Shown in pieces: positions 11,504-15,004 of a stretch of DNA of 64,000 bases. A model generated the notes under the pieces. That model worked only from the letters and a program-made list of their open reading frames with translations. It was not told the origin of the DNA and ran no database searches. Origin of the DNA: Sulfuriroseicoccus oceanibius (GTDB taxonomy: Bacteria > Verrucomicrobiota > Verrucomicrobiia > Verrucomicrobiales > SLCJ01); contig NZ_CP066776.1 of assembly GCF_010681825.2 (NCBI RefSeq), positions 2,666,001 through 2,730,000 on the forward strand. The letters are read 5' to 3'. Positions within the stretch are counted from its first letter, which is position 1, and the number at the start of each line of letters is the position of its first letter. A program made the position numbers and the translations under genes.

Positions 11504-12796
11504 TTACTTCGCCATCGCTGCCTCGATATCATCGGCGGCAATTGGCATCTCAGGCATCAGGTTCACCGTCGCGTCCGCACCCACGTAGTACGTGTTCTCC
11601 AGACGGATGCCGATGTTCTCCTCACGGATATAAACACCCGGCTCGATGGTGAACACATTACCCACTTCCACAGGCACGCCCGGCACGTTCACATCGTGCA
11701 CATCGAGCCCCAGATGATGGGACGTTCCGTGCATGAAGTACTTACGCACCAGAGTAAACGGCGCCTCCTGAGCGTCCACATCCTCTTGAGTGAACAATCC
11801 AAGCCCAATCAGCTCTTTTTCCATCAGGCCCAGCACCTGCTCTTGATAATCCTTGAGCAAAATCCCCGGACGCAAGATCTCCACGCAACGTTCGAGCACG
11901 CGCAGCACCGCATCGTACACCGCGCGCTGACGCTCGGTGAACTTACCGCTCACCGGAATGGTGCGCGTGCTGTCAGATGTGTACGGTCCGAACGAAGCAC
12001 CGCAGTCCATCAGCAAAAGATCCCCCTCACGGCAAACCGCAGCACTCTCCAGATAGTGCAACACACAAGCATTGGCACCGGTAGCAACAATCGGCTGATA
12101 GGCGAATGAACCGCCCGAGCGCACGAACTCATACGCCCACTCCGCTTCGACTTCGACTTCCTTAATCCCTGGCTTCACCGCGGCCAACACACGGTCGAAT
12201 CCGCGCTTGGTAATCTCGCAGGCCTCTTTGATCACTGCCAGTTCCTCGCCCTCCTTGACCATACGCAGACGCGTCAGCAATGGCGACAAGCGACGGTACT
12301 GGTGCAATGGGAAGTTCTTCTGGCACTGGGCAATGAAGCGATCGTTGCGCGTTTCCACGCTACCTTCGGCGCGGATGTGCTCATTGGTCACCAAGTACAC
12401 ATTCTCGCTTTCGGCCATCAGCTGATTGAGCTTGCCCTCGAAGGCAGACGTCCAACCCACACTCTGAATCCCGGATGCCAAGGTCGCTTGCTCTTTGGTC
12501 AACTTGTCGCCTTCCCAAATCGCGATGTGCTCGTTGGTCTCACGCACAAACAACCACTCACGGTCCGCCTCGTTCGCCGCATCGGGGCACAGAATGAGCA
12601 CGCTCTCCTCCTGGTCGACCCCACTCAGATAATAGAAATCCGCATTCTGTTTGAATGGCAGGGTTCCGTCCGCGTTGGTTGGCATCACATCGTTCGAGTG
12701 AACAATGACAATGCTGTTTTCAGGCAGCATTTCGCGCAGCTTGGCGCGGTTCTTGGTAAAGAGAGAAGATGGTGCGGGAGTGTATCGATATGCCAT
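11504..12796 (-). CDS. pepP: Xaa-Pro aminopeptidase (aminopeptidase P, M24 family)
   Basis: 430 residues. Aminopeptidase P removes the N-terminal residue in front of proline, using two metal ions in a pita-bread fold. The N-terminal creatinase-like domain has FKQNADFYYLSGVDQEESVL. The catalytic domain shows the metal ligands in order: DCGASFGPYTSDSTR (two Asp), HGTSHHLGLDVHD (His), FTIEPGVYI (Glu) and GIRLENTYYV (Glu). It is transcribed leftward, and the gap to the PDZ protein upstream is only 37 bp, so it could share that transcript. Confidence 0.95.
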   Translation of the reverse strand: MAYRYTPAPSSLFTKNRAKLREMLPENSIVIVHSNDVMPTNADGTLPFKQNADFYYLSGVDQEESVLILCPDAANEADREWLFVRETNEHIAIWEGDKLTKEQATLASGIQSVGWTSAFEGKLNQLMAESENVYLVTNEHIRAEGSVETRNDRFIAQCQKNFPLHQYRRLSPLLTRLRMVKEGEELAVIKEACEITKRGFDRVLAAVKPGIKEVEVEAEWAYEFVRSGGSFAYQPIVATGANACVLHYLESAAVCREGDLLLMDCGASFGPYTSDSTRTIPVSGKFTERQRAVYDAVLRVLERCVEILRPGILLKDYQEQVLGLMEKELIGLGLFTQEDVDAQEAPFTLVRKYFMHGTSHHLGLDVHDVNVPGVPVEVGNVFTIEPGVYIREENIGIRLENTYYVGADATVNLMPEMPIAADDIEAAMAK

Positions 12797-12833: not shown

Positions 12834-13862
12834 CTATTCCTCGTCATCGTTGGTGCCGCCAGTCCGAATTCGATCAATCGAGGCCCGCACGGTCGCCATT
12901 GGAAGCGCATAAGTCGTTACCCGGTCGGCCCGTGCGATCAACACGGCAAGGGCCTCTCCATCCAGAGTCAGCACCGCACCACCCATCGCCGTAGGTGGCA
13001 GCGGCAAGTCGGTTTGAATCACCTGCGAGAAGCCCGACTTACGGTACGAGGTGCGCCCACTCATCTGCTGGTTGCGGTCAAACTTGTCCAAGGTCTCGGA
13101 TGGTGACGCCAGCTCAGCTTCGACAACGAGTTGCTCGTCGCCTCGCTCCACGGTCACATTCACTTTGTCCCCTGGATCGTGCTCCGACAGGATCTTACCC
13201 AACGACTCCAACGTAGTTACCGGCGAATCCCCCACCATCACCAAAACATCATCCTTCTTCAGGCCCGCCTTCACCATCGGCCCGTCGGGCACCATGTCGG
13301 TCACCTTCACGCCCACCGGTTCTTTTCCGTCTTTCACCTCTTCACCGAGGAAAGCCAGTGTCCCGCCGCGCGTCTCAATCGACCGTGGGTTCGCGGAGAC
13401 CAACGCCACCCGCATCCAGCCGATGCGCGGTGTGGATCCCACTACCACCGTACCGATTGGCAATTCGCCTTCCACCGGCGTCGCAGGCTCCAATGCCTCC
13501 GCATGCTCACCGGTCAGCTTCAGCAACGCCAGATCGTTATCATCATCGATCCCCACTACCTCAACCTCCATCTTCCGCCGCCGCGCATTGCTGGCATAAA
13601 TCCCATCCTTGCCCTTGAGCTCGGAGGCTTTGGTCACCGCAAATCCCGGCTCGACCACCGTCGCCAGCGCAAACGGCCGACGCTCAACATGCAAAGTCAC
13701 CGTGCTCTTCTTTGAAACCTCCGACGCCGTATCAAAGGCCTTCACGGTTTCGCGTCCGTTGGTTCGGTCCTCCACCTCCAACAACGCATTCGCCGAAACC
13801 GGCACCACCGTGGCCAGCGCCAGCAATCCAGCACCCATCATCCATTGACTACATGTTCTCAT
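12834..13862 (-). CDS. PDZ-containing pseudo-protease of the trypsin-like fold
   Basis: 342 residues with an N-terminal signal peptide. The fold looks like an S1C (DegP/HtrA) protease, but the catalytic residues are gone. The place of TAAHVV is TKASEL (residues 77-82), so the His is lost. The Asp region DNDLALLKL (108-116) remains. The NSGGPL motif is replaced by AMGGAV (292-297), so the Ser is lost. A PDZ-like region (about 160-255) lies between the Asp strand and the last barrel strands, which resume at QVIQTDLP. It abuts the true S1C gene, with its start (13862) overlapping the stop of that gene. This suggests co-expression and perhaps a regulatory or binding role. The inactivity is read from the sequence; the role is inferred. 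Confidence 0.8.
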   Translation of the reverse strand: MRTCSQWMMGAGLLALATVVPVSANALLEVEDRTNGRETVKAFDTASEVSKKSTVTLHVERRPFALATVVEPGFAVTKASELKGKDGIYASNARRRKMEVEVVGIDDDNDLALLKLTGEHAEALEPATPVEGELPIGTVVVGSTPRIGWMRVALVSANPRSIETRGGTLAFLGEEVKDGKEPVGVKVTDMVPDGPMVKAGLKKDDVLVMVGDSPVTTLESLGKILSEHDPGDKVNVTVERGDEQLVVEAELASPSETLDKFDRNQQMSGRTSYRKSGFSQVIQTDLPLPPTAMGGAVLTLDGEALAVLIARADRVTTYALPMATVRASIDRIRTGGTNDDEE

Positions 13863-15004
13863 TATTCGCCCTCCTTTGATTCATTCTTCTCTTCCTCCGC
13901 CGCATCCGGCTTCTCATCCGTCGTATTGTCACCATCCGCCCCCGCAGGCGGAGCCGGAGCTTCCTGCGGACGGCTCATCAACCGCACCCAGACCTCCGCC
14001 TCATCGCCACCCTCACGCTTCACACGCAACATCACCCGCTCTCCCACATAGCGCCCGGCCAACGCCTCGCGCACTTCCCCCACGGTCGTCACGTCATTGC
14101 CATCGACACTCAAAATCACATCGCCCGCCAGCAAGCCGGAATGGGCGGCCGGAGCATCGGCCGCGACCTCACGCACCTGCAGCCCATCAGCTTCCTCCAA
14201 CACCACCCCAAGCAATCCACCTCCCAGCTCCCTGCGGATCACCGCACCACTGCGGTACAGCTCGTCATTGTCGATCAACACACTCACCGGCACGTGCATA
14301 CTGAACTCCACGTTCATTCCGACCCGGCTGTTGATTCCGATCAACCGCCCGTACAGATCAAACAACGGACCACCGGAGTCCCCGCCAATCAGCACGCAAT
14401 CACTCTGCACCGTCGTCGGCTCCATCATCACCACGCGCCCCATCCGCACCACCGGACCACGCTTCTCATCCCAGCCCCCACTGTGGCCCATGGCAAACAC
14501 CCAATCCCCGACCTTCAGCTTCGAATAGTCACCCAATGGAGCCGCCTGAAACTTTACCCCATCCGGGTTGATAATCCGCGCCATCCCCGCGTCGGTCCGT
14601 TCATCCACCCCCAACGCCTCGCCGTCGTACTTCGTACCGTCGGGCATGACGATCTTCAGCGCGGTTCCAGGAGTCGCCACCACGTGGGCCGCCGTCAGGA
14701 TCAAGCCGGACTCTGAAACAACCGTCCCGCTGCCTGATCCACCACCCGCCTGGATGCACACCAACGAGCCCTTCACCCTTGCCATCGCCGTCTGCAGCTC
14801 TTTTGAATACTCTTTGAAGAACGCCTCATCAGCAGGCCGCTCCACCGATATCACCTTGGCCGTCTGCTCCGCCGCTTCAGGAAGCCCGGCAACCACCAAC
14901 GGTGGAGCCTCTTCCAACAACGGATCTTTCGGACGCTCGCCCTCGCCAACCACCGCGCCAGCCGCGGCTGCCATCCCCAATAAAAAAATACTCCAGGTCT
15001 TCAT
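13862..15004 (-). CDS. S1C-family serine protease (DegP/HtrA-like) with PDZ domain
   Basis: 380 residues, exported: the start at 15004 gives MKTWSIFLLGMAAAAGAVVG, a signal peptide. An upstream in-frame ATG at 15067 is less likely. The catalytic triad is visible: His107 in TAAHVV, Asp138 in TDAGMARI, Ser210 in GGDSGGPLFD. A PDZ domain occupies about residues 262-350 (VLEEADGLQVREVAADAPA, then LAGDVILSVDGNDV). The C-terminus is a low-complexity acidic tail. HtrA-type proteins degrade or refold damaged envelope proteins. Its stop overlaps the start of the pseudo-protease, so the two form a translationally linked pair. Confidence 0.92.
   Translation of the reverse strand: MKTWSIFLLGMAAAAGAVVGEGERPKDPLLEEAPPLVVAGLPEAAEQTAKVISVERPADEAFFKEYSKELQTAMARVKGSLVCIQAGGGSGSGTVVSESGLILTAAHVVATPGTALKIVMPDGTKYDGEALGVDERTDAGMARIINPDGVKFQAAPLGDYSKLKVGDWVFAMGHSGGWDEKRGPVVRMGRVVMMEPTTVQSDCVLIGGDSGGPLFDLYGRLIGINSRVGMNVEFSMHVPVSVLIDNDELYRSGAVIRRELGGGLLGVVLEEADGLQVREVAADAPAAHSGLLAGDVILSVDGNDVTTVGEVREALAGRYVGERVMLRVKREGGDEAEVWVRLMSRPQEAPAPPAGADGDNTTDEKPDAAEEEKNESKEGE

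Follow-up and report, generated by a model that had tools for sequence, protein, structure and literature searches.

HtrA proteases have been studied as homo-oligomers in which each subunit both senses and cuts, and it is therefore difficult to tell the L3 signal of the sending subunit apart from the LD loop of its receiving neighbour. The sensor loop of canonical HtrAs, L3, comes after the strand GIVSA. An arginine in L3 of HtrA1 switches on the next subunit, and this arginine acts as an activating element in the HtrA family studied. Pairs of live and dead HtrAs have arisen several times; in MamE/MamO the live HtrA, MamE, depends on a dead HtrA-like partner, and MamE-dependent proteolysis needs MamO but not catalysis by MamO (PMC4794232). 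MamO keeps its catalytic residues in place and possesses a transporter domain as well as a metal-binding protease domain. Plant Deg7 likewise combines live and dead HtrA protease domains, of which the dead one mediates trimerisation (PMC3473262), but does so in one polypeptide throughout (PD-PDZ-PDZ-PDia-PDZ-PDZ) and with no PDZ inside a protease domain. Two different HtrA subunits also assemble in plant Deg5/Deg8, where Deg5, which has no PDZ, forms heterohexamers with Deg8 (PMC9319218, PMC3473262), although both are listed as potentially active proteases and the domain order of Deg8 is normal. A PDZ embedded in a serine protease domain is found in Prc, CtpA and CtpB of family S41, where it regulates the protease (PMC6686036); the protease fold and catalytic apparatus of these enzymes are unrelated to those of the HtrAs.

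The pair of genes described here lies on the minus strand of a 64,000-nucleotide window, the whole stretch of Sulfuriroseicoccus oceanibius DNA that was analysed, and all coordinates below refer to that window and strand. The upstream gene (13862-15004, start codon ATG at 15004) encodes a live HtrA-type serine protease of 380 amino acids, with a signal-peptide-like N-terminus followed by a trypsin domain (Pfam Trypsin_2 at residues 91-224, 5.5e-26) and a single C-terminal PDZ (PDZ_2 at 264-334; 14003-14215). An earlier note on this DNA had read its triad as intact, and His107 in the motif TAAHV (14684-14686), Asp138 (14591-14593) and Ser210 in GGDSGGP (14375-14377) are all in place, with the same residue found at each position in 123 of 123 distinct live partners. 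The AlphaFold2 (AF2) model of the protein (pLDDT 82) has the normal domain order and matches HhoA/DegP with a VIA Z-score of about 26. Between its strands 168-173 and 185-195 lies an LD-like loop (residues 173-184; 14453-14488) that is conserved in the family; in the alignment of live partners, two glycine columns and an arginine column of the LD region are invariant (123/123). The live protein thus has both the trypsin fold with a His-Asp-Ser triad and the C-terminal PDZ of MEROPS S1C. Against the NCBIfam model degP_htrA_DO it scores 144 bits, which is below the curated subfamily cut-off of 416, and by its sequence it is a divergent HtrA and not DegP, DegQ or DegS.

The downstream gene (12834-13862) overlaps the live gene by one base in the sequence TAATG at 13862, such that its start lies inside the stop codon of the live gene. 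Its product is a pseudoprotease of 342 amino acids that has the whole HtrA fold, lacks the catalytic His and Ser, and carries a PDZ in the loop between strands beta9 and beta10, which is L3. Pfam recognises only the N-terminal half of Trypsin_2 (residues 69-145), followed by PDZ_2 at 172-250 (6.8e-15; 13113-13349), a block that is modelled mostly with pLDDT over 90. The first part of the fold, supported by the Trypsin_2 match and by AF2 strands, spans residues 62-162 (13377-13679) and runs to the strand ending at the L3 arginine. The final barrel strands occupy residues 278-321 (12900-13031), where the model has strands at 278-284, 296-299, 303-311 and 317-321, so that the PDZ is placed between barrel strands 150-162 and 278-284. 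Comparison with DegQ by phmmer gave the same arrangement: residues 95-137 correspond to the first protease half, 184-253 to PDZ1, and 268-308, which lie behind the PDZ, to the half containing QTD...SGG (residues 162-202 of the DegQ construct). The AF2 model, built from an alignment of 63 sequences, has a mean pLDDT of 86.1 and a pTM of 0.79. Superposition with VIA-align 2 matched it to AlgW over the protease-domain residues alone (53-281; Z 25.6, 188 residues, 1.8 A) and to 168 of the 169 residues of the DegS-deltaPDZ chain 2qgr at 2.1 A. The aligned residues are spread over positions 35-341 of the model, so that no part of the trypsin fold is missing on either side of the PDZ, and the profile, phmmer and superposition results together identify the second protein as a complete HtrA barrel with an inserted PDZ. 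The earlier note had placed a PDZ between the Asp-bearing part and the final strands of a gene that overlaps its neighbour and lacks His and Ser, and had proposed structure prediction of 12834-13862 as a check; on all of these points its reading is borne out, as the prediction returned a complete trypsin fold with the PDZ in an order that is not that of HtrA. The barrel is the one found in DegS, DegP, DegQ and AlgW of S1C (Z about 25), with which the dead partner shares the L3 arginine and the live partner the normal domain order. In contrast to these canonical HtrAs, the dead partner has no His or Ser of the triad, and its PDZ is inside L3 rather than C-terminal. The dead protein does not belong to S41 either: its barrel is of the HtrA/trypsin type, and its match to the prc model (17.7 bits) covers only the PDZ, residues 172-251. 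A frameshift or chance as the source of the domain order was excluded, given that the same collinear arrangement recurs in more than 120 homologues and that close relatives show a dN/dS of about 0.16 for the dead gene and 0.11 for the live gene.

Whereas the triad is intact in all 123 distinct live partners, it is absent from 128 of 128 distinct dead partners. The motif TxAHV is replaced by TKASE in the window (residues 77-81; 13620-13634), in which Ser80 takes the position of the catalytic His; this residue is Ser in 125 of 126 dead partners and Thr in the remaining one, and Lys78 is found in 123 of 126. The position of the catalytic Asp is kept (Asp110, 13533-13535; Asp in 123/126). At the position of the catalytic Ser, TAMGGA stands for GNSGGP and Met293 (12984-12986) for the nucleophile, a position at which the 128 dead partners have M (91), C (16), V (11), I (5), A (3), L (1) and S (1). 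The single Ser occurs in L044:2090-3265, within the sequence RESGGPV, and the His position of that protein is still Ser. Dead partners also share the motif NIARxDR, which includes Arg311 to Arg314 (12921-12932) and in which Arg311 is present in 125 and Arg314 in all of 128 sequences. The fixed pattern of replacement and the nearly or fully invariant Lys78, Arg311 and Arg314 indicate that the dead site is fixed and not decayed. Loss of the triad is what might be expected if the dead gene were a functionless duplicate undergoing decay, an explanation we consider scarcely credible as it is refuted by the low dN/dS, the collinear architecture across the order, the invariant residues and the existence of fusions with the live gene. 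It could also be supposed that the dead partner has acquired chemistry or binding of its own at a pseudo-site formed by Lys78, Ser80, Asp110, Arg311 and Arg314, much as MamO binds metal (PMC4794232), for the change from His to Ser and the invariant Arg314 look selected rather than decayed. Such an activity would not, however, require adjacency to the live gene or fusion with it, no matching active-site motif was found, and His284 is not kept in the window, and we judge this explanation to be very improbable.

A first assignment of the insertion site to loop LD was dropped when the DegP/HtrA1 numbering, which rests on the G+7 arginine, placed it in L3. Arg160 (13383-13385) is the equivalent of the L3 sensor arginine (R187 of DegP, R302 of HtrA1). 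All 12 canonical HtrAs that were checked, with DegP, DegQ and DegS of E. coli among them, have an arginine at G+7, which is invariant in their alignment; it is present in 127 of 127 dead partners, with the PDZ directly behind it, and hhalign places Arg160 in the column of the invariant Arg213 of DegP (precursor numbering). The columns of the LD loop, several of which are fully invariant in the live partner, are variable in the dead partner. Of the HtrA switch, the dead protein has thus retained the half that sends and lost the half that receives, together with the catalytic site. Because the insertion point, which the earlier note had not recognised, is L3, immediately behind the L3 arginine, regulation of the live subunit would be a more specific role for the dead partner than plain recruitment, although the conservation of Arg160 could instead be structural.

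Depending on the alignment register, the live partner may have lost an L3 arginine of its own or kept it. If G189 is the equivalent of G180 of DegP, the live partners have 13-15 residues from this glycine to the Asp of QTD versus 21-26 in canonical HtrAs, and L3 is truncated and without arginine, a register favoured by the strand positions in the AF2 model of the live protein. HMMER and hhalign choose the other register, in which G183 matches G180 and R190 matches R187; position 190 is R in 88 and K in 34 of the 123 live partners. With a truncated L3 the pair could be a split allosteric protease with sensing and catalysis assigned to different proteins, in which the catalytic subunit has lost L3, the dead subunit has the L3 arginine and a built-in PDZ, and only the mixed complex responds to substrate. 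We put this forward tentatively, as a version that is rather doubtful at present.

Several features of the gene pair suggest that the two proteins act together. Of 160 dead ORFs from a profile search, 152 directly follow a live ORF that lies on their strand, most commonly with a 4-nt overlap. The other 8 comprise ORFs at contig ends (L023/L128, L166), over-extended ORFs in which the live gene is nested inside the call (L062/L135), a fusion (L063), and L100/L146, which are one genome (G024) that has the live gene at a separate locus, L201. The pair therefore resembles MamE/MamO in having a live HtrA and a dead HtrA partner at the same locus, but the dead protein, unlike MamO, has other residues in place of His and Ser and carries a PDZ within its fold, and the NCBIfam MamE/MamO models placed the proteins outside those families (best scores of 76, 34 and 32 bits against a cut-off of 800). 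Although the partners, unlike the domains of Deg7, are mostly encoded by separate genes, 12 genes are fused, 11 in the order live-dead (L047, L055-L060, L063, L196, L197, L204) and one, L195, in the order dead-live. The reversed fusion (L195:1569-3440) is from a genome of another family of the phylum. On a quick tree of the dead domain with SH-aLRT support, the fused state required at least 5 changes. In one genus of family f2, the L048/L156/L161 clade and L130, the separate live partner is only 226-302 amino acids long and has no detected PDZ, so in at least 3 lineages the dead partner holds the only PDZ of the pair. The mirror-tree correlation of 0.95 is expected for linked genes. Genomes with a match of the live type below about 1e-52 also have a match of the dead type. 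Seven genomes of 2.2-2.7 Mb from genus g3 (G001, G029, G037, G049, G059, G069 and G072) have neither gene while other members of the genus have the pair, which suggests joint loss of both genes. Many genomes possess a second, longer pair type beside the first (L036, L037, L038, L039, L054 and similar loci), with two PDZ-like regions in the live protein and a dead protein of 400-500 amino acids that has Cys or Val at the Ser position; here the pair was apparently duplicated as a pair. In L118:3156-4847, from a Limisphaerales MAG, an ORF of 563 amino acids has a stretch resembling endonuclease/exonuclease/phosphatase proteins, a domain recognised by eye, in front of the live partner, and the usual dead partner is located downstream of this ORF.

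The dead protein might serve only as a scaffold, whose PDZ and barrel contacts help assembly or the delivery of substrate without any allosteric signal through L3. That proximity matters most is suggested by the occurrence of fusions in both orders; in plant Deg7, trimerisation is mediated by the dead domain (PMC3473262), and Deg5 and Deg8 form mixed hexamers (PMC9319218). A scaffold does not explain why the PDZ is placed in L3 beside an arginine present in 127 of 127 sequences, or why decay affected the LD columns and spared L3, and we regard this explanation as unlikely, if the most credible of the competing roles. In the reading that we prefer, the dead subunit controls the live one. The suggestion of the earlier note that a dead partner may regulate the live protease or recruit substrates for it fits this reading and is supported indirectly by adjacency, fusions, co-occurrence, live partners without a PDZ, the conserved pseudo-site and the published pairs.

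The survey of relatives which the earlier note had envisaged found homologues in 155 of the 190 genomes sampled from the order (E <= 1e-5) and showed the pair to be conserved. In a stricter profile search (E <= 1e-25), 37 of 388 genomes of the phylum had matches, all of them from the same order and one other family (f44). A contig scan with a single protein as query returned no relative, and with an alignment-based pattern from the main subfamily as query it returned 65 loci from GTDB species genomes. These loci are all from Verrucomicrobiota and include Prosthecobacter MAGs as well as the cultured Brevifollis gellanilyticus. Two MAGs titled Akkermansia muciniphila (L144, L148) have a pair that nests among sequences of Verrucomicrobiaceae/Prosthecobacter, and their titles are probably wrong. 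A search of plasmids gave no match, and mobile spread of the pair was rejected for that reason. To judge from this distribution, the pair is an ancient, conserved unit. Downstream of the pair in the window is a gene for a PepP-like Xaa-Pro aminopeptidase (11504-12796), which neighbours the pair in some relatives; apart from the window, 20 of the 65 named loci have a same-strand PepP homologue behind the pair, and other clades have metF. PepP was rejected as a third member of the unit, since the presence of metF at this place in another clade indicates synteny, which may hint at peptide breakdown after the protease.

In the mechanism that we propose, the products of both genes would be exported and would divide the labour within a single HtrA complex, the upstream protein being the catalyst; export of both is suggested by signal-peptide-like N-termini in a crude check. 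The pseudoprotease may have kept its HtrA barrel in order to sit beside a live subunit, as subunits do in HtrA trimers. Binding of a ligand, either a peptide or the C-terminus of a protein, to the inserted PDZ would move loop L3, and this movement would, through Arg160, order the LD loop and the oxyanion site of the live subunit next to it. In this way the dead subunit would act as a substrate sensor and an activator in trans, and it might recruit substrate too. As the PDZ sits in the loop that HtrAs use to switch on the neighbouring subunit, the live protease probably has a built-in switch in its dead copy. We think it probable, though by no means assured, that the two proteins form a mixed complex, with the dead subunit sensing by way of its PDZ, controlling the live subunit and activating it in trans. 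Physical association of the two proteins is the best supported of these proposed steps, and the natural fusions are the only physical hint of a mixed trimeric assembly. Activation, as opposed to inhibition or plain scaffolding, is the least certain step. A live partner with a PDZ of its own, as most have, might act alone, and the L3 model leaves the fixed residues Lys78, Ser80, Arg311 and Arg314 unexplained.

The dead subunit could conversely be a safety catch that keeps the live protease inactive for as long as the inserted PDZ has no ligand. An embedded PDZ can inhibit as well as stimulate, as seen when CtpA and CtpB are compared with Prc (PMC6686036), and translational coupling would keep the ratio of the two subunits constant. 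In the HtrA family studied, however, the conserved L3 arginine serves activation, and MamO promotes the activity of MamE (PMC4794232), which makes inhibition quite unlikely.

In a literature search that covered few subscription journals, no paper turned up that describes these Verrucomicrobiota pairs or a trypsin fold with an internal PDZ. Pairs of live and dead HtrAs are already known; the inserted PDZ appears to be new. The locus presents a pseudoprotease pair whose maintenance extends over an order and is not confined to one specialised pathway, and it displays a PDZ inserted in a trypsin fold. A natural separation of the sender, namely the L3 arginine and the PDZ, from the catalyst would make the inter-subunit mechanism of HtrA proteases directly testable.
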